A stretch of DNA of 64,000 bases from Dysgonomonas sp. ZJ279. GTDB lineage: Bacteria; Bacteroidota; Bacteroidia; Bacteroidales; Dysgonomonadaceae. The notes below the pieces were generated by a model. That model did not search any database. It saw nothing but the letters and a program-made list of their open reading frames with translations, and was not told where the DNA came from. A program made the translations under genes and the position numbers. Each line of letters opens with the position of its first letter. Position 1 is the stretch's first letter. The stretch lies in the NCBI RefSeq assembly GCF_011039205.1, contig NZ_JAAKEL010000008.1, positions 1 through 64,000 of the forward strand, written 5' to 3'. This document shows positions 1 through 11,262 of this stretch, one piece after another.

Positions 1-162
1 ATTTTACCCTCTGTGTTAGTGTTTCATACACAAAGGAATTTATAATGTTAATATTTGTTAGTAAAATGCAGGGCTTTATTAGAAGCTCTAGCGGATTTTA
101 CTTAACCGGTGGTATACTTTTCAATTATTTTAGTGGACTACTTTTCAATTATATTATACATC
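1..162. mobile_element. End of an insertion sequence (IS21-like) abutting cas9
   Basis: Two near-identical 19-base units (110-128 and 134-152) share the core ACTTTTCAATTAT, spaced 24 bases apart, and lie directly beside the stop codon of cas9. Tandem short repeats just inside the tip are typical of IS21-family termini, which usually start TG and end CA. On the minus strand a TG tip could be placed at about 162, in which case the last cas9 codons and the stop come from the IS. No transposase is visible, because the rest of the element would lie left of base 1. Bases 1-100 hold no convincing gene. The family assignment rests on the repeat pattern only. Confidence 0.5.
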
Positions 163-3100
163 ACTTTCCATAACAACAAACAAATAATTATCCCCTGTAA
201 CAACACTTTTCTTAGTGTTATTATCATATAGTCTTTGCAGAGAACTTTCTTCTTTCCCACTATACCATAGCTTCACTTTATATACGGGTGGCTTTAATTC
301 GGTGTTTTTCTTAGTTTGAAAGCGACTCTCATTGAAAGCGATCAAACCTTCGCCTGTAAAAGCCTCCTTCATCGTTTCGTATTTTTTCCGATGGCAATCT
401 ATTTCCGTTTTTATAACCTCATCTATGATTTGTGAAATATCTTTTACTTTTAAAGACGAAATTGCAACTGTTTTAGTATCCCTCCCCAATGTTTTGCCAT
501 AATAAGTTTCTTGGTGTAGTGCGGCTCGTATTTTTAGTTGCCTGCTGCCTGTTTTATCGTCCACTATCTTAATCCCTAATTTGTCTTTCGGTTTGTGGGA
601 AATAACCATTTTTTCTAAATATTCTTGTGCTTGTTTTAGTAAACTTGGTTTAGAAATAAGACTTTCAAGATATCTCGAACTTTCAATACTTCTTTGAATC
701 TCAATTCTTCTCTTTTCTTCCAAATTGAAAAATGCTTCTAAAATAGTTTCGCCTTCTTGTACCCCTATTTTGAATTCATCTTTTTTATTTAGAAGTTCAT
801 CTTGTAAATATTTGTTTAGATTGTTTAATCTTTGAATATGTTTTGGTTCTGTAAGAGCAACAACTAATGCATCTATAGAGTGATGGCGGTGATCGTATCT
901 TTTACTCCAGTTTTTTATTTGATAGATATGCTTCTCTTTTTCTTGGTCATAATATTTTATTATCCACTCTTCGTTTGGTCGATTCGTTTCATTATTCCAA
1001 TCCCACAATTCCATTTGTTTAAAACGACTTTCCGTAAGTTTCATAAAAAGGTCTTTTAACCCCCAGCGACTTCTTAAAAAACTTGTTACTTCGCCAGTGC
1101 TTGTTTTTATATTGTCGCTCCCTACAATCTTTGCTAATTCATCTTTAACTGCCAAAGAAATATATTGCGTATCTTTTATTTGTCGATCAACCACTCCTGT
1201 TGGTATTTTTTCGAGTAATAAATTTCTTTTCTTCCTACCATGAAAATTATCATTAACAAAGTTAATATACTCCTCAATTGAGCAAATTTTAAATTTGGAG
1301 TTTTGTTGTGACATATACTCCCAAGCTGTTCTATTGCTTTTTTCCTCATTAATATCACTTTCACAAACTATTTTATTCGATATTGAATCATCAAAAAATC
1401 TTGATTTAGGAATGATGTGATCTATATCGTATAATCGCTCCGGTGAAAACAATTTTGATAGCGGAATGGGCTCCTTGGTATAAGGTGAAGTATATTTTTG
1501 ACCTTCCCAAAGTTTATATAATTCAATGTTTCCTTGCGTGGGTTCTTGCTTCAACTCAGCCAGCCGTTTTTTTACGGCTTCATTATTTTTTTGATTGTTT
1601 ATCTGTCCTTTATATATATTTTCTCTTTCTGCTGAACTGTTTTTCAGGTCTCTAGCCAATTCAACACGAATCTCAAGTTCTTTAGGGTCAAATTTATACT
1701 CTTTCCATATAGCTTTCACAACTTGCATCGTTTCATTGATGATTTGCTCAACAATTGGATTTCTTAATTTTCGGTCAACATACTTGATGTCATGATAATC
1801 TAAGATTTGAGCTTTAATAGTCTCTTTGGTATGCTTACCATATACTAATGAACTCGCAAAGGCATACATAATTCCCCCTTTATTAAGCAAGTCCGGATGG
1901 TTTTTTATGAAAGAAATTACATACTCTTCAGAATTCTCTAACAAATTTTCGTCAAGTATTTCTGCTGTTTCGATCAGATGTTGAATATTATTGAATTTAT
2001 CCTTGACATTATCAGAAACATCCATCGGGTTAAGTTGCATCAACGGTAGAATATTTCGAATCGCTTTATCAGAAAGGTTAGCATATTTTCTTGGAAACTT
2101 AATGTTTTGAGCAATATTTAAAGCTAATTCTATTGAGATATGTGGCACTAGATATTTTTTCAACAAATCTGTGATAGAAGAAACCTTGGGGCTTTTGGGA
2201 TCGTATTCGCTTCCATAATTTGAATTATAAAATATTGCTTGCCAGATTTTTTCTACTATTTCATTGTCTTTTTCTACTATGTTTTCGTAATATACGCCTA
2301 ATGTCTTTTTTATTGCAATAGACGTATCACAACCTTTTAGTTTTGCTTTTGCATTCAGTCCGTTTAGATATTCTGTTCCATCTGATTTTAATTTCACAAT
2401 TTTCGCAATCTCCCCAAAGCTAATTTGTTTTTGATATTGGAGTTTTGAATATATTTGTAGTTTCTCTTCCTGATTCAAAAATCTGTCTGTGTATTCAAAA
2501 ACATTTTTCCTCTTCGTTTCACTGAAATTTTCACATTTAGAAGTAATATACAATTTATTTATTTGATCCCAACACCTGAATTCTTGAAATAAAGGATGAG
2601 AATTAGCTATTACCTTTTCTTCTTTCTCAAATCGACATTTACCAATTAATTCTTCTTGCGATTTTAGTGGACGTTGATAATAAATTATCTGATTCTTAAT
2701 AATATACTTTAGTCCGCCCTCAATAGCTTCTTTCCTTAATTGTTTTTGTGTTTCTCTTTCTCCCGGAAATAAATACCATGCGATGTTGTTTAGTTTCTCT
2801 TTAGGGCAATTATCTAGTATTGAATATTTTTTTGATTGTATATCCCATATTGCATCAAACTCTTCTTCGTACCTATTACGCAGAGTTACTCGGTTTCTAA
2901 TTTTAGCCCATTTGTTTTTTTCCAAATCACGCAGTAGAAGCTCACTAATAAATCCTCCATCCCTTTTTAGAGCCGCCTCTGTAGCCTCCATTTGTTTACG
3001 CCAATTGGTCTTTTGGGGTAATGCAACAATAACAGAACTCACTCCTTTTTTAGTTCTCCTAATTCTTATTTCTAGTTCTTCTTCTTTTCCTTCTTTTTCT

Positions 3101-3795
3101 TTTAAGTTTTGAAGCATCGTTGAGCCTTGTATCTCCTCGTCGTTCAAAGAAATAATAACATCAAAATAAAATTGCTCTTCTCCTTTGTTTTTGCCTCCTT
3201 TTATCTTAAATGTTCGATCTGATTTTTCTACACTTAATATCTCTACTTGCCGGGTAAAAACTTCATAAGCTTTTTTTTCCCCATCCTCACTATCATCTTC
3301 TGTTTTCTTTTTACTGTCATCCTCATTATCACCTCCTGAATAACCTCTAAGTTGGTTAAACTGATAAAGAATTTTCCCTAAATCTTTAATATCATCAACA
3401 GGTTTTCTAAGGGAATTAACTTTCAGTTGATAGTACCCAAGTGAGTCTAACTGCATCGTACCTTTTTTGATTGGTAGCAGTTCTAGTTCTTGTATTTTAT
3501 TTGCTTCTGGTATATCATTTTTAAATTGAAATTGTGTTGGTAACATTCCCAGTTCATACAAGACATAAAGTAGTTTATTTCTACGCAATTTATATCTTTT
3601 GTTCATTTTTCGGGCTGTGCGTTTTTCTCTACGAGTTGCATTTTTTGTCACTCCAACACCTTTTTCATAATCTTGCTTATCGGTTCCCATCGGAATTATC
3701 CGACTACCCATACCTTCGATTTTCTTATTTTCAGCATCTACTAACGCCCAACCAATGGAGTTGGTTCCCAAATCTAATCCTAATATCTTTTTCAT
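154..3795 (-). CDS. cas9: CRISPR-associated endonuclease Cas9, type II-C, C-terminally truncated
   Basis: RNA-guided DNA endonuclease of 1213 residues. RuvC-I is GLDLGTNSIGWAL with Asp8, followed by an Arg-rich bridge helix at about 54-75. RuvC-II is VELARD with Glu712. The HNH domain has DIDHIIP with His793, and RuvC-III is HHSIDAL with Asp975. All nuclease residues are therefore present. The protein stops just after a GDNYLFVV motif in the C-terminal PAM-interacting region. Bacteroidota II-C Cas9s are usually about 1400 residues and continue with a segment ending in a NDLVYVPT-like motif, which is missing here. The stop codon sits next to an insertion-sequence end, so I infer IS truncation and probable loss of function. 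cas1, cas2 and the array are not in the window. The ATG at 3793-3795 fits the family start. Confidence 0.9.
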   Translation of the reverse strand: MKKILGLDLGTNSIGWALVDAENKKIEGMGSRIIPMGTDKQDYEKGVGVTKNATRREKRTARKMNKRYKLRRNKLLYVLYELGMLPTQFQFKNDIPEANKIQELELLPIKKGTMQLDSLGYYQLKVNSLRKPVDDIKDLGKILYQFNQLRGYSGGDNEDDSKKKTEDDSEDGEKKAYEVFTRQVEILSVEKSDRTFKIKGGKNKGEEQFYFDVIISLNDEEIQGSTMLQNLKEKEGKEEELEIRIRRTKKGVSSVIVALPQKTNWRKQMEATEAALKRDGGFISELLLRDLEKNKWAKIRNRVTLRNRYEEEFDAIWDIQSKKYSILDNCPKEKLNNIAWYLFPGERETQKQLRKEAIEGGLKYIIKNQIIYYQRPLKSQEELIGKCRFEKEEKVIANSHPLFQEFRCWDQINKLYITSKCENFSETKRKNVFEYTDRFLNQEEKLQIYSKLQYQKQISFGEIAKIVKLKSDGTEYLNGLNAKAKLKGCDTSIAIKKTLGVYYENIVEKDNEIVEKIWQAIFYNSNYGSEYDPKSPKVSSITDLLKKYLVPHISIELALNIAQNIKFPRKYANLSDKAIRNILPLMQLNPMDVSDNVKDKFNNIQHLIETAEILDENLLENSEEYVISFIKNHPDLLNKGGIMYAFASSLVYGKHTKETIKAQILDYHDIKYVDRKLRNPIVEQIINETMQVVKAIWKEYKFDPKELEIRVELARDLKNSSAERENIYKGQINNQKNNEAVKKRLAELKQEPTQGNIELYKLWEGQKYTSPYTKEPIPLSKLFSPERLYDIDHIIPKSRFFDDSISNKIVCESDINEEKSNRTAWEYMSQQNSKFKICSIEEYINFVNDNFHGRKKRNLLLEKIPTGVVDRQIKDTQYISLAVKDELAKIVGSDNIKTSTGEVTSFLRSRWGLKDLFMKLTESRFKQMELWDWNNETNRPNEEWIIKYYDQEKEKHIYQIKNWSKRYDHRHHSIDALVVALTEPKHIQRLNNLNKYLQDELLNKKDEFKIGVQEGETILEAFFNLEEKRRIEIQRSIESSRYLESLISKPSLLKQAQEYLEKMVISHKPKDKLGIKIVDDKTGSRQLKIRAALHQETYYGKTLGRDTKTVAISSLKVKDISQIIDEVIKTEIDCHRKKYETMKEAFTGEGLIAFNESRFQTKKNTELKPPVYKVKLWYSGKEESSLQRLYDNNTKKSVVTGDNYLFVVMESDV

Positions 3796-3871
3796 AGTAT
3801 CCTTTTTATCAAAGCCTTAAAGATAAATAAATAAATTTTAAGAATATTGGTATGGTTATGTGAAATTTTAA

Positions 3872-3879: not shown

Positions 3880-3884
3880 CAAAT

Positions 3885-3960
3885 ACAATTTGAAAGCAAA
3901 TCACAATAAGGATTATTCCGTTGTGAAAACATCAAGAGCGACACTTCGGTGTCGCTTTTT
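3885..3960 (+). ncRNA. tracrRNA of the type II-C CRISPR system
   Basis: The RNA starts with an anti-repeat (about 3885-3906, including GAAAGCAAATCACAA). It is followed by a short nexus-like hairpin around GGATTATTCC, and ends in a perfect GCGACAC-TTCG-GTGTCGC hairpin with a T-run (3938-3960) that serves as terminator. The complement of the anti-repeat reads TTGTGATTTGCTTTCAAATT. This agrees with the start of the 47-base II-C repeat that I recall from Bacteroides fragilis. The gene is divergent from cas9 and has its own promoter. It predicts the repeat of an array located outside this window. Confidence 0.8.
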
Positions 3961-3983
3961 CTATTATTATATTGGGTATATAC

Positions 3984-4092: not shown

Positions 4093-4971
4093 TTACCCCA
4101 TCTCTCCATACTCCCTAATCTTCACTTCACAAATACGTTTAGTAATATCTCGAAGTAACTCCACTTTCGGAATAAGAGCATCAATATCTTCTTTAGTAAC
4201 TATGAATTTCGGATTATACCTCGCCTCAATATAAGCATCCTTAACCAAATTAAAAAGCCGTTTTTCTTCTACCGAATTATTAGGAAAGACATGAGCCAAA
4301 TCTGAAGAATGACCTTTAACAGACGCAGCCAGTTTAGTCAGGTTATGTTGTTTATTACTTCTCAGCGTAAAAGCTAAACGGATAGCATAGTAATAGTTTT
4401 CACAGGCTTGATGAAGAAAAAAAGATGCTTCTTTATAATCAGCTTCACTATTCGCTATTCCTGCATATTTTAAAAAGTTATTTGCTCGATTAAATTTCTC
4501 ATCAAAATATTCCTGTGCCTGTTTCTTTATCTCATCAAACTTTAGTTTGCGTCTTCGGGCTAACTTAAAATTACCGCTATCATAAAGGATAATTCCTTCC
4601 TGTTTGATTTGGGTATGAAAATACCGACCTTCTTCTAATGCTCGGTTGATGGTCTTTATATCGTCGTTGATAAAATTGACAGGAGTTTGATAATCGGGTT
4701 CTTTATAATATAGAGCATCAATGTTATCTAATATGATTCCTGCTTTATTGTCTGATATCTTGCTTGTGATTACATAGATATCATAATCGGAACGGAATGA
4801 GGTAGGTATACCGAATTCTACTCTTTCGTCATAGTCTACATATTCATTTCTGGCATAGCTGCCAAATAAGATAATCATTTCGGCCTCGGGAAGTCGTTTG
4901 TTGATCTCCATAACAAGGCGTATTAAGTCTTCTTGTTTTGGTTTAGGCAGATAGGCTATTGACTTTTTCAT
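4093..4971 (-). CDS. Nucleotidyltransferase-HEPN domain protein
   Basis: This 292-residue protein has an N-terminal minimal nucleotidyltransferase of the DNA polymerase beta superfamily, with GSYAR near residue 42 and the metal-binding DYDIYV near residue 68. The C-terminal half is a HEPN-like helical domain (HQACENYYYAIRLAF, about 190-205). The same two domains as separate genes form MNT-HEPN toxin-antitoxin pairs in which the MNT protein adenylylates the HEPN RNase. Fused forms are common on Bacteroidota mobile elements. The canonical RNase motif (R-x4-6-H) is not obvious, so catalysis by the HEPN part is uncertain. The gene is monocistronic, with its own terminator beside the tracrRNA. Its role as a defence or addiction factor is inferred. 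Confidence 0.75.
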   Translation of the reverse strand: MKKSIAYLPKPKQEDLIRLVMEINKRLPEAEMIILFGSYARNEYVDYDERVEFGIPTSFRSDYDIYVITSKISDNKAGIILDNIDALYYKEPDYQTPVNFINDDIKTINRALEEGRYFHTQIKQEGIILYDSGNFKLARRRKLKFDEIKKQAQEYFDEKFNRANNFLKYAGIANSEADYKEASFFLHQACENYYYAIRLAFTLRSNKQHNLTKLAASVKGHSSDLAHVFPNNSVEEKRLFNLVKDAYIEARYNPKFIVTKEDIDALIPKVELLRDITKRICEVKIREYGEMG

Positions 4972-8770: not shown

Positions 8771-10240
8771 TTATTCGGGGAAGATGTCGGCTACTGCTTT
8801 TATAAATCTGCGGTGATTATATACTCCGTCTTTCTCTATAAATTGATTGGAATAAGAGGAATGCGATAAGCCATAGGCATTAAGAAAGGGAATCAGCCAT
8901 TCTTTTTCATACCTATAGGTCGATAAATCGGTTCTGTTTTTCCATATTCGTTTGAGCAGATAATAGAACTGGGTCTTGTCTTTGATCTCAAATGCTTCTA
9001 CTTTTTGTATTGTGGTTGCAAAAACGTTCAGAAATTCCAACACGGATATGTCTTCCCAAAGGGTATTATTAAATTCTTCGTGTACTTGTATCAGGGTGGA
9101 TAGTTTCGTTATACAATCCGGGCGTAATTTTTCTTTGTATATTATGCCATTCGATTCTACTTCCACTCTGCCGTCAGCCAATTGATTATTTTCAGTCTCT
9201 TTATTTTCTATAGGTTCATCAATTGTGGTTGGCTCAGCTATCTCTTCTTCAATAATAGTTTCTGTTCTTTCTGTTTCTTGTGTATCAGGTTCAGAACTTA
9301 TTTCAGCTTCGGTTTCAACAATTGATCTTTGTTCTTTATCTAATTCCCGAACAAAGAATATGCTGCTTAATAGTAGGATCAAGTGTTCGAATTGAGGTAA
9401 AGCCGTCAGATCGGTATAATCGTTTATTGAATTCTTCTCAAACTTCCAATCGTATGTAGAAGAATATTTGGAGTAATTAAACTCAATATACCGGGCATAG
9501 TCGGATAGATTTAGTTTTTCAAGCATATCTGATAATATATACCCTGTTATGTGTCGTTTGTCGATACTTGGTTTTCCAAGCAGATAATCGGAAACGAAGT
9601 TACGGTCACAAAAGTCAGTGGATAGTTCTATGGCTTTACTTATATATTCAGCCTTATACTGTTGAGTAAGTTTGCTTGTTTCATTTTCTGAAACGATTCG
9701 TTTACGGTTGTTAAAATCTCTGAGTAATTGCTTTGTATAAGGAGTGGTTATGACTGGTATAAAGTGAGAGAGCCTCCAAAGAATATAATTATTGTCTTTG
9801 AAATAGTACTCGGGCAGATTTGTTATTACAGCTTCAAAGCCCTTATACACAATTGGTCTTTCGAACTCATCCCGATGTTTGAAGACTTCATCTCTTATGA
9901 ACTGATAAGTATTGAAAGATAGTTCTTCGAGCTGCTTGGTTATCGGGTATTCGTTGTATAGTTGTTTGATAATGGGGTTATATTCGGCCAACAGGTCGCT
10001 GTTGGCTTCGCTCAGGAATAGCAGACGGTTGATTGAACAGGTAAACTCTTCGGGGTATGCTTCTCTCGAAAGATTTTGTTGGATTTCGGATTTAAGTTGA
10101 TCGAAATCCGTCAGGGTGCTTTCAAGGGATAGGTCTATTTTTCTTTCACCGGCACAGGTTTCTTTATTGGATTTTATCTGATATTTAATCAGGCTATTGT
10201 ATTGCTCTATGTAATAAAGGGTCTCTTTGATAGTGTCCAT
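8771..10240 (-). CDS. Large hypothetical mobile-element protein
   Basis: This soluble 489-residue protein has no signal peptide or membrane segment. The N-terminal two thirds are helical. A strongly acidic Glu/Thr-rich linker (about 308-355) separates them from a C-terminal domain of about 130 residues containing LLKRIWKNRTDLSTYRYEKEWLIPFLNAYG. I do not recognise a named domain. The overall look recalls RteC-type regulators of Bacteroides conjugative transposons, but the resemblance is too weak to assign. It ends in its own terminator and lies between the toxin-antitoxin pair and the excisionase-like gene. Confidence 0.5.
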   Translation of the reverse strand: MDTIKETLYYIEQYNSLIKYQIKSNKETCAGERKIDLSLESTLTDFDQLKSEIQQNLSREAYPEEFTCSINRLLFLSEANSDLLAEYNPIIKQLYNEYPITKQLEELSFNTYQFIRDEVFKHRDEFERPIVYKGFEAVITNLPEYYFKDNNYILWRLSHFIPVITTPYTKQLLRDFNNRKRIVSENETSKLTQQYKAEYISKAIELSTDFCDRNFVSDYLLGKPSIDKRHITGYILSDMLEKLNLSDYARYIEFNYSKYSSTYDWKFEKNSINDYTDLTALPQFEHLILLLSSIFFVRELDKEQRSIVETEAEISSEPDTQETERTETIIEEEIAEPTTIDEPIENKETENNQLADGRVEVESNGIIYKEKLRPDCITKLSTLIQVHEEFNNTLWEDISVLEFLNVFATTIQKVEAFEIKDKTQFYYLLKRIWKNRTDLSTYRYEKEWLIPFLNAYGLSHSSYSNQFIEKDGVYNHRRFIKAVADIFPE

Positions 10241-10251
10241 AATCGTAAGTT

Positions 10252-11262
10252 TTAATCCAAACTAACTTTCCTAAAACTATTGTTCAATTCTTTTATTTTC
10301 TCAATCAGCTTATCAAAAGATAATGAATCTCCATAAATCATAGATGATTGCATTTTATTATAGTCATCTCTCCACTTCGATAACACCTCGCTTGGAGGAA
10401 CAAAAGAAATCGCTTGTGGTAGTAAAGTTTTATAATCAAAGTCTTTCAATCCAATAAACTTCTTGCGATGCTCTATTACAGCCTTATATAATTCCGTATC
10501 ATCTAAAGCCTCTTTCGCTATCTCTGTATCCATCAATTTTCCTAAATCGTAAATATGCCGAGACATCCTATCTACACGAATGTCATCAGATATCTTTTGA
10601 AATTCTTCATGCAACAAACATGCCTTTTCCAAAAATGTACGCTTAGGAGATACTCCTTCTATTTCAAAGTTTTCCTCTGCAAAACTAGCTTGGGGATAGG
10701 TTTGTGATATAATCGAATTTATTCCTATTTTCTCTTTTGGCTCATTCATTGATCTGCCACTAACTTCAACTAATACTTTATTCTGAATATAGTCAGCCTC
10801 AGAAAATACCGACTTGTAGTGGATTTCTATAATTTCAGGATCAGTTGTGGTTACAGTTGTTATATTAACGGTAATTGAAAATAAAGATTGATCTATACCC
10901 AAGTTAGCTAACTGTGTTGACAATTCTGTAGTCAATTTATCTCTAGTGAAAGTACATGATGCTCGTCTAAGTTTATCACTAATTTGAGTTTTTGATAATT
11001 CTCCACCAAAGCCTAAGTATTCTCTATCAACTGCAATGTCTACATCTTCTGAGAATCGTTGTATTAGATTCCAACATTTACTCAATGATGTGCCACCCTT
11101 AAATGATAGGCTACTTGCAAATGGAGTTGAGAACAAGGCTTTCAATACCATAGTTACCCACCAATCTTTTTCGATGGAAGCAGAAGATAAATATGTTTTA
11201 CCTTCTATATCCTTAATTATATTTACTCTTCTTTCTTCTTCGACATTAAGCCAGCGATTCAT
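10252..11262 (-). CDS. AbiEii-type nucleotidyltransferase toxin
   Basis: This 336-residue protein belongs to the AbiEii/AbiGii family, the toxin of type IV toxin-antitoxin and abortive-infection systems. The nucleotidyltransferase core is visible as FKGGTSLSKCWNLI (about 54-67) followed by FSEDVDIAVD (about 70-79), matching the G-S-x10-D-x-D pattern. Family members act as nucleotidyltransferases, several of them on tRNA 3' ends. The gene starts 17 bases inside its partner, so the two are translationally coupled. It follows the antitoxin gene in the usual order. Confidence 0.85.
   Translation of the reverse strand: MNRWLNVEEERRVNIIKDIEGKTYLSSASIEKDWWVTMVLKALFSTPFASSLSFKGGTSLSKCWNLIQRFSEDVDIAVDREYLGFGGELSKTQISDKLRRASCTFTRDKLTTELSTQLANLGIDQSLFSITVNITTVTTTDPEIIEIHYKSVFSEADYIQNKVLVEVSGRSMNEPKEKIGINSIISQTYPQASFAEENFEIEGVSPKRTFLEKACLLHEEFQKISDDIRVDRMSRHIYDLGKLMDTEIAKEALDDTELYKAVIEHRKKFIGLKDFDYKTLLPQAISFVPPSEVLSKWRDDYNKMQSSMIYGDSLSFDKLIEKIKELNNSFRKVSLD

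Follow-up and report, generated by a model that had tools for sequence, protein, structure and literature searches.

Why does a Cas9 that keeps its nuclease regions end at residue 1213, directly beside the terminal motifs of an insertion sequence? The gene lies at the left edge of the window (the whole 64,000-nt stretch of DNA analysed here), and base 1 of the window is also the start of its contig, C57, with no sequence further left. An earlier note on this DNA had proposed that the 3' end of a type II-C cas9 was cut off by the insertion sequence. The features on which our answer draws are collected in Table 1, where positions without a prefix are those of the window, G000 is the window's own genome and C29 is another of its contigs. 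By its homologues, the host appears to belong in or near Bacteroidota.

Table 1. Positions of the cas9 fragment, the inserted element and the remaining CRISPR components
Feature	Position	Strand	Remarks
IS21-type element end, 160 bp, cut at contig edge	1..160		Terminal sequence TGTATAATATAATTG... on minus strand
Element terminal motifs, 24 nt each, two in tandem	109..156	+	109-132 and 133-156
9-bp target duplication GGAAAGTGA (cas9 strand)	161..169		Second copy at G000:C29:128-136
cas9 5' part, 1213-codon ORF	154..3795	-	Native up to Ser1211; the element supplies the final codons and the stop
HNH His793 codon	1417..1419	-	Aligns with a residue that is Ala in dead CbCas9 (PDB 8iyq)
RuvC-I Asp8 codon	3772..3774	-	Aligns with a residue that is Ala in dead CbCas9 (PDB 8iyq)
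Probable tracrRNA	3883..3962	+	Anti-repeat followed by two hairpins, the second terminator-like with a T run; upstream of cas9
cas1	C29:774-1709		PADLOC Cas1_II over nearly whole length
cas2	C29:1722-2060		PADLOC Cas2_II over nearly whole length
CRISPR array	C29:2170-4443		30 identical 47-nt repeats, 29 spacers, 28 unique

The open reading frame has no internal stop and encodes a Cas9 (TIGR01865, 431 bits against a cut-off of 100) with the Pfam regions RuvC_III and HNH_4. CbCas9, which we take to originate from Chryseobacterium, is the best-scoring relative of solved structure (PDB 8iyq), and two collinear matches to it cover most of the shortened protein; it has 1442 residues, compared with 1213 here. 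What the earlier note had read from the letters stands up: the protein ends at 1213 residues with a stop codon at 154-156, both nuclease regions are present with Asp8 and His793 aligned to the alanine sites of dead CbCas9, the stop adjoins the tandem terminal motifs, and the 3' end of the gene is cut by the element. The frame is native up to Ser1211 and then passes through a mixed codon (Asp) to a Val codon and a stop supplied by the element, with the insertion point in codon 1212. The final 7 bases of the ORF (154-160) are assigned to the element because same-strand copies of it elsewhere in the genome diverge from the window exactly past base 160. A protein search of the genome for a second Cas9 returned this one match only; the other HNH_4 match in the genome is a 185-aa frame on contig C26 (23.6 bits).

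The element is repeated throughout the assembly. The genome holds the sequence of bases 1-160 in 12 copies at 100% identity (9/12 at base 1 of a contig), the match being exact over 160 bases in all 12 and the flank differing from copy to copy. Base-by-base comparison of eight of the other 11, those on the same strand, showed identity to the window for exactly 160 bases and divergence thereafter. The opposite element end, 127 bp long, is also present in 12 identical copies. The two ends are 94% identical over 51 nt and stand inverted in a complete copy in the sister genome G008, and such inverted ends with repeated terminal motifs are a feature of IS21 elements. Half of the right ends (6/12), including that at the cas9 site, pair with a left end through a target duplication (8, 9, 9, 9, 10 and 10 bp), and by our own calculation, which assumes equal base frequencies, about 0.002 such pairings would be expected by chance among 144. 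The six right ends that have no duplication partner may reflect recombination or rearrangement between copies, or lost duplications. IS21 elements duplicate 4-8 bp of their target; the duplications of 8-10 bp found here, and that of 10 bp in G008, are mostly longer.

Neither the interior of the element nor its transposase genes were found in this assembly: no interior was observed to follow any of the 24 end copies, and of three matches to Pfam IstB in the genome, one over the cut-off (33.6 against 24.1 bits), none lies at an element end. For this reason the IS21 label rests on the complete relative in G008, which measures 2662 bp from terminus to terminus, has both ends and its duplication, is 89% identical to the element end sequence and encodes IstA and IstB (NF033546 and NF038214, above the NCBIfam cut-offs). 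By relationship to this copy, we classify the element as putatively IS21-type. Within the same genus, 11 of 25 genomes, the own genome included, match the element end, and a search of a plasmid collection with this end gave no match.

Homologous loci indicate where such a Cas9 would normally end. Among 24 loci homologous to cas9, 22 are readable past the break, and these extend 185-320 aa beyond the last residue of the window protein, to totals of 1404-1566 from the match start, at 61-69% identity over about 1200 aligned residues. The two others are uninformative on the Cas9 end: L039 runs off its contig, and L033, an Umea MAG, has an in-frame stop after residue 933 past which similarity continues to the end of the query, either a real lesion or a MAG error. 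One readable homologue, L020, carries a C-terminal extension past the others (1566 aa, 320 residues beyond the break), and the remaining 21 continue by 185-242 aa. Within the genus, cas9 is matched in 6 of 25 genomes, again counting the own genome, and the best-scoring other match has 38% identity over 386 residues, with short N-terminal pieces of up to 58%.

The missing segment is present elsewhere in the genome. A profile of the Cas9 tail, built from 10 of the 22 readable homologues, has a single match in the genome, at C29:153-764 (E 1.3e-84). Contig C29 starts with the 127-bp opposite element end; immediately behind it comes an open frame that lacks the cas9 start and holds 210 codons of Cas9 tail, 57% identical over 208 alignment columns to the tail of a Pedobacter homologue. 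The flanks of the window contig and of C29 have the 9-bp GGAAAGTGA in common; the connection between the two contigs is drawn from the common element and this duplication only. The gene is therefore not an uninterrupted frame through the C-terminal PAM-interacting region, as its ORF ends in the element and its tail lies on the other contig. The earlier note had called for an IS21 transposase pair, the missing Cas9 segment and a target duplication to the left of base 1; the segment and the 9-bp duplication were found, on C29, and the transposase pair was not found in the assembly. Its expectation that the family continues by 150-200 residues held as to the continuation and fell somewhat short as to size (210 residues here, 185-320 in the homologues), and the alignment with full-length homologues that it had suggested does reveal the missing part. 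Taken together, these comparisons confirm the disruption as an observation and support its reading as the work of an IS21-type element.

Two other accounts of the break can be weighed at this point. The 1213-aa protein might be a functional short variant, as its intact RuvC and HNH regions and a frame free of internal stops would allow; the frame ends in element sequence, however, the remainder of cas9 is found elsewhere in the genome, and not one of the 22 readable homologues stops at this point with the same length and C-terminus. Homologue lengths and the recovered tail together rule this variant out as far as such evidence can, and we give it almost no weight. It is also conceivable that the insertion is present in part of the culture only, or that an intact cas9 lies elsewhere and the contig ends give a false picture, given that the two contigs were joined without a spanning read and that contigs break at element copies. 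Against this, the tail profile and the N-terminal part each have a single match in the genome, and the 9-bp duplication marks a real insertion; we regard this account as very improbable.

The label PAM-interacting for the missing part derives from the match of the tail profile to CbCas9 and from general knowledge, since a profile built from the last ~400 residues of 21 of the 22 homologues matched no chain of solved structure at E 0.01. With the tail profile, the C29 segment matches CbCas9 residues 1318-1382, with a weaker stretch at 1398-1428, and the deleted region has invariant columns across 21 aligned homologues. PADLOC run on the tail gave one weak match, which was to a different family (PD-Lambda-1, E 4e-4). 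In Cas9 proteins the PAM is read by the C-terminal part, and without this reading double-stranded DNA is not searched.

Between the Cas9 tail and the array, C29 carries cas1 and cas2 only, plus small opposite-strand ORFs overlapping cas1, so this interval has the cas9-cas1-cas2 order without csn2 or cas4. Cas1 was matched once in the genome, and a second Cas1 was considered and rejected on this count. Upstream of cas9, a stretch at 3883-3910 within the tracrRNA candidate is 93% identical to part of the array repeat and would form a duplex with the crRNA-strand repeat of -30.9 kcal/mol, compared with a mean of -10.3 and a best value of -18.7 among 200 shuffles and with -6.9 for the other strand. 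The fold of 3880-3965 has a z score of -5.3, and the Rfam tracrRNA model scores 24 bits at the candidate (E 0.1), below its gathering threshold of 70 and among other chance-level matches. A Cas9 with RuvC and HNH, an array and a predicted tracrRNA with an anti-repeat are together the features of a type II-C system. Because the anti-repeat pairs with the reverse complement of the repeat, the crRNA strand is C29 in reverse complement. At C29:4468-4504, a degenerate copy resembling the repeat (84%) suggests that the far end of the array is its old end, and spacers 1-5 would therefore be newer than spacers 6 and 7. Also upstream of cas9, at window positions 4093-4971 on the minus strand, is a 292-aa ORF that looks nucleotidyltransferase-HEPN-like by eye only, to which PADLOC gave no match.

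The array also matches the cell's own genome. Its sixth and seventh spacers are identical neighbours (G000:C29:2601-2630 and 2678-2707, in L085) and match G000:C10:7739-7768 at 30/30 positions, a site outside the array in the own genome, which makes them self-targeting spacers. By our own calculation, a 30/30 match for one spacer in 4.1 Mb would arise by chance far less than once per billion searches. A BLAST search of the own genome with the array (E up to 1) returned four matches: the array, the degenerate repeat-like copy beside it, the window's anti-repeat and the C10 site. Scanning C8, C10, the window and C29 from position 4601 (about 206 kb) for protospacers with up to 8 mismatches added none to the perfect pair, and a shuffled-spacer control gave one 8-mismatch match; the rest of the 4.1-Mb genome was covered by the BLAST search with the array only, which may miss mismatched sites.

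The protospacer lies within a capsid-like ORF of 307 aa, which matches the major head protein family phrog_267 weakly (E 1.6e-5), matches no Pfam family, and aligns along its full length, at 48.5% identity, with a region of Flavobacterium phage fF4 that carries the annotations putative capsid protein and putative protease. Around it, C10 carries terminase, portal/head, protease, sheath and tape-measure genes. Contig C8 carries a Mu-like transposase, a transposition protein, Gam and a repressor (PHROGs 310, 296, 491 and 4); in Pfam, Phage_Mu_Gam is found there and the transposase has no family. With transposase A, the B protein, Gam and a repressor besides head and tail genes, the two contigs together have the gene content of a Mu-like prophage, their connection being drawn from element ends and an 8-bp duplication only. 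On this gene content, the genome holds a Mu-like prophage that is matched by its own CRISPR memory. The same IS21-type element seems to sit inside this prophage, at G000:C10:1-160 and G000:C8:1-127, with the 8-bp duplication GGAATGCG. The prophage also encodes a reverse transcriptase (L115:1726-2724, on G000:C8; phrog_1423, E 1.6e-134), near which small ORFs at 2932-3327, 3347-3838 and 10020-10403 have by eye an Ala/Ser/Tyr-rich motif in common; together they are perhaps a diversity-generating retroelement.

The 3' flank of the protospacer is TGAAAATGGG, and TGAAAATG adjoins the protospacer. Exact scans of IMG/VR with 8 of the 28 unique spacers gave no match for seven, so no PAM could be read from them. 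The eighth, the prophage spacer, matched an IMG/VR contig that agrees with C10 over 9147 identical bases and probably comes from the same strain; because this sole matching contig is identical to the prophage over that length, it yields no independent PAM. A search of a phage collection with the whole array gave one weak match (E 0.7), which we did not take as a protospacer.

We consider it very probable that an IS21-type element interrupted this type II-C locus within codon 1212 of cas9, and that as a result DNA cutting was lost and the self-matching spacers are tolerated. On this reading, the element would have inserted into a tracrRNA-cas9-cas1-cas2-array locus and left a shortened Cas9 that presumably could neither search nor cut double-stranded DNA, because its PAM-interacting region would be missing. 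Uptake of new spacers is probably off too, since in a type II-A system it needed Cas9 (PMC6990116). Loss of Cas9 would then be the reason why spacers that match the chromosome are tolerated. DNA cutting has most likely been lost, which would remove autoimmunity against the prophage, and the insertion may explain how the cell survives with a dormant virus to which spacers of its own array are a perfect match. The prophage may have favoured the insertion by selection, and either of the two may have come first.

The causal link, as distinct from the disruption, has one substantial competitor. The insertion may have had nothing to do with the prophage match, the prophage being tolerated anyway through a wrong PAM or an anti-CRISPR protein and the element having hopped into cas9 by chance; this is a possibility to be taken seriously, though in our view doubtful. 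The element has at least 12 copies, one of them apparently in the same prophage, and its insertions are therefore frequent; in addition, the PAM of this Cas9 was not readable from the eight spacer scans. On the other side, an active Cas9 with a permitted PAM would be expected to kill a cell that carries a 30/30 self-match, and a broken cas9 beside a self-targeting spacer is reported for Mycoplasma arthritidis (PMC6882279).

A different competitor concerns what is left of the protein. A shortened Cas9 might be made and keep a PAM-free activity, for instance as a guided nuclease acting on single-stranded DNA or RNA, or as a store of guides. The nuclease regions are retained, the tracrRNA and array look intact, and some type II-C Cas9s are reported to cut RNA without a flanking motif (PMC6990116). 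The prophage-matching crRNA would be of the same sense as the capsid-like transcript, however, and the two could not pair, which rules out RNA targeting of that transcript by spacers 6 and 7, and the invariant columns of the deleted region also count against a protein that does without it; we judge such an activity quite improbable. The insertion falls between the nuclease part and the PAM-interacting part, with the stop two codons on, and a more specific version would have the shortened Cas9 blind to the PAM, holding its guide and cutting single-stranded nucleic acid while sparing the chromosome. We think this highly unlikely; if true, a PAM-blind Cas9 would be an immune system moved from killing lysogens to tolerating them.

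On the preferred reading, in which the insertion inactivated cas9, one genome still preserves all three parts: a pair of identical spacers as the memory, a prophage with a perfect protospacer as the target, and the insertion in cas9 as the lesion, which would make the coexistence of spacers and prophage possible. The case adds a type II-C example to the evidence that mobile elements switch off CRISPR immunity, and it warns against listing the cas9 of this window among natural short Cas9s. A limited literature search found no paper on a type II-C cas9 broken by IS21. Inactivation of cas genes by insertion sequences and broken cas9 genes beside self-targeting spacers have both been published already, and what we describe is therefore a well-documented new case, not a new kind.

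The closest precedents share some features with this case and differ in others. Sheng et al. (2023, PMC10359306) report 163 cases of insertion sequences in cas genes, from 20 IS families and 57 genera, among them Erwinia amylovora 7-3, in which a type I-E system broken by IS10 is found together with a plasmid that its own spacers match. As in those cases, an insertion sequence with a target duplication lies in a cas gene and would inactivate the system; unlike in them, the gene here is a type II-C cas9, the element is of IS21 type and the target is a resident Mu-like prophage. The main text of that survey contains none of the terms IS21, self-target and Bacteroid, and its supplementary case lists may include IS21 or cas9. 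One survey traced 83% of self-targeting spacers to (pro)phage sequences, and another assigned 47% of them to mobile elements (both quoted in PMC6990116). In M. arthritidis, one of the Mollicutes, the cas9 beside the self-targeting spacer is reported to be broken by a frameshift instead of an insertion sequence, and the target there is a tRNA-ligase gene (PMC6882279). CbCas9 is reported to work with a factor, PcrIIC1 (PMC13153721). The type II-C system of Bacteroides fragilis (PMC9367070) is alike in its 47-nt repeat, in the same TTTGAAAGCAAATCACAAC end and in its type II-C cas9; the excerpted text of that paper describes no disruption there, unlike the cas9 of this window, which an IS21-type element appears to have cut in two.
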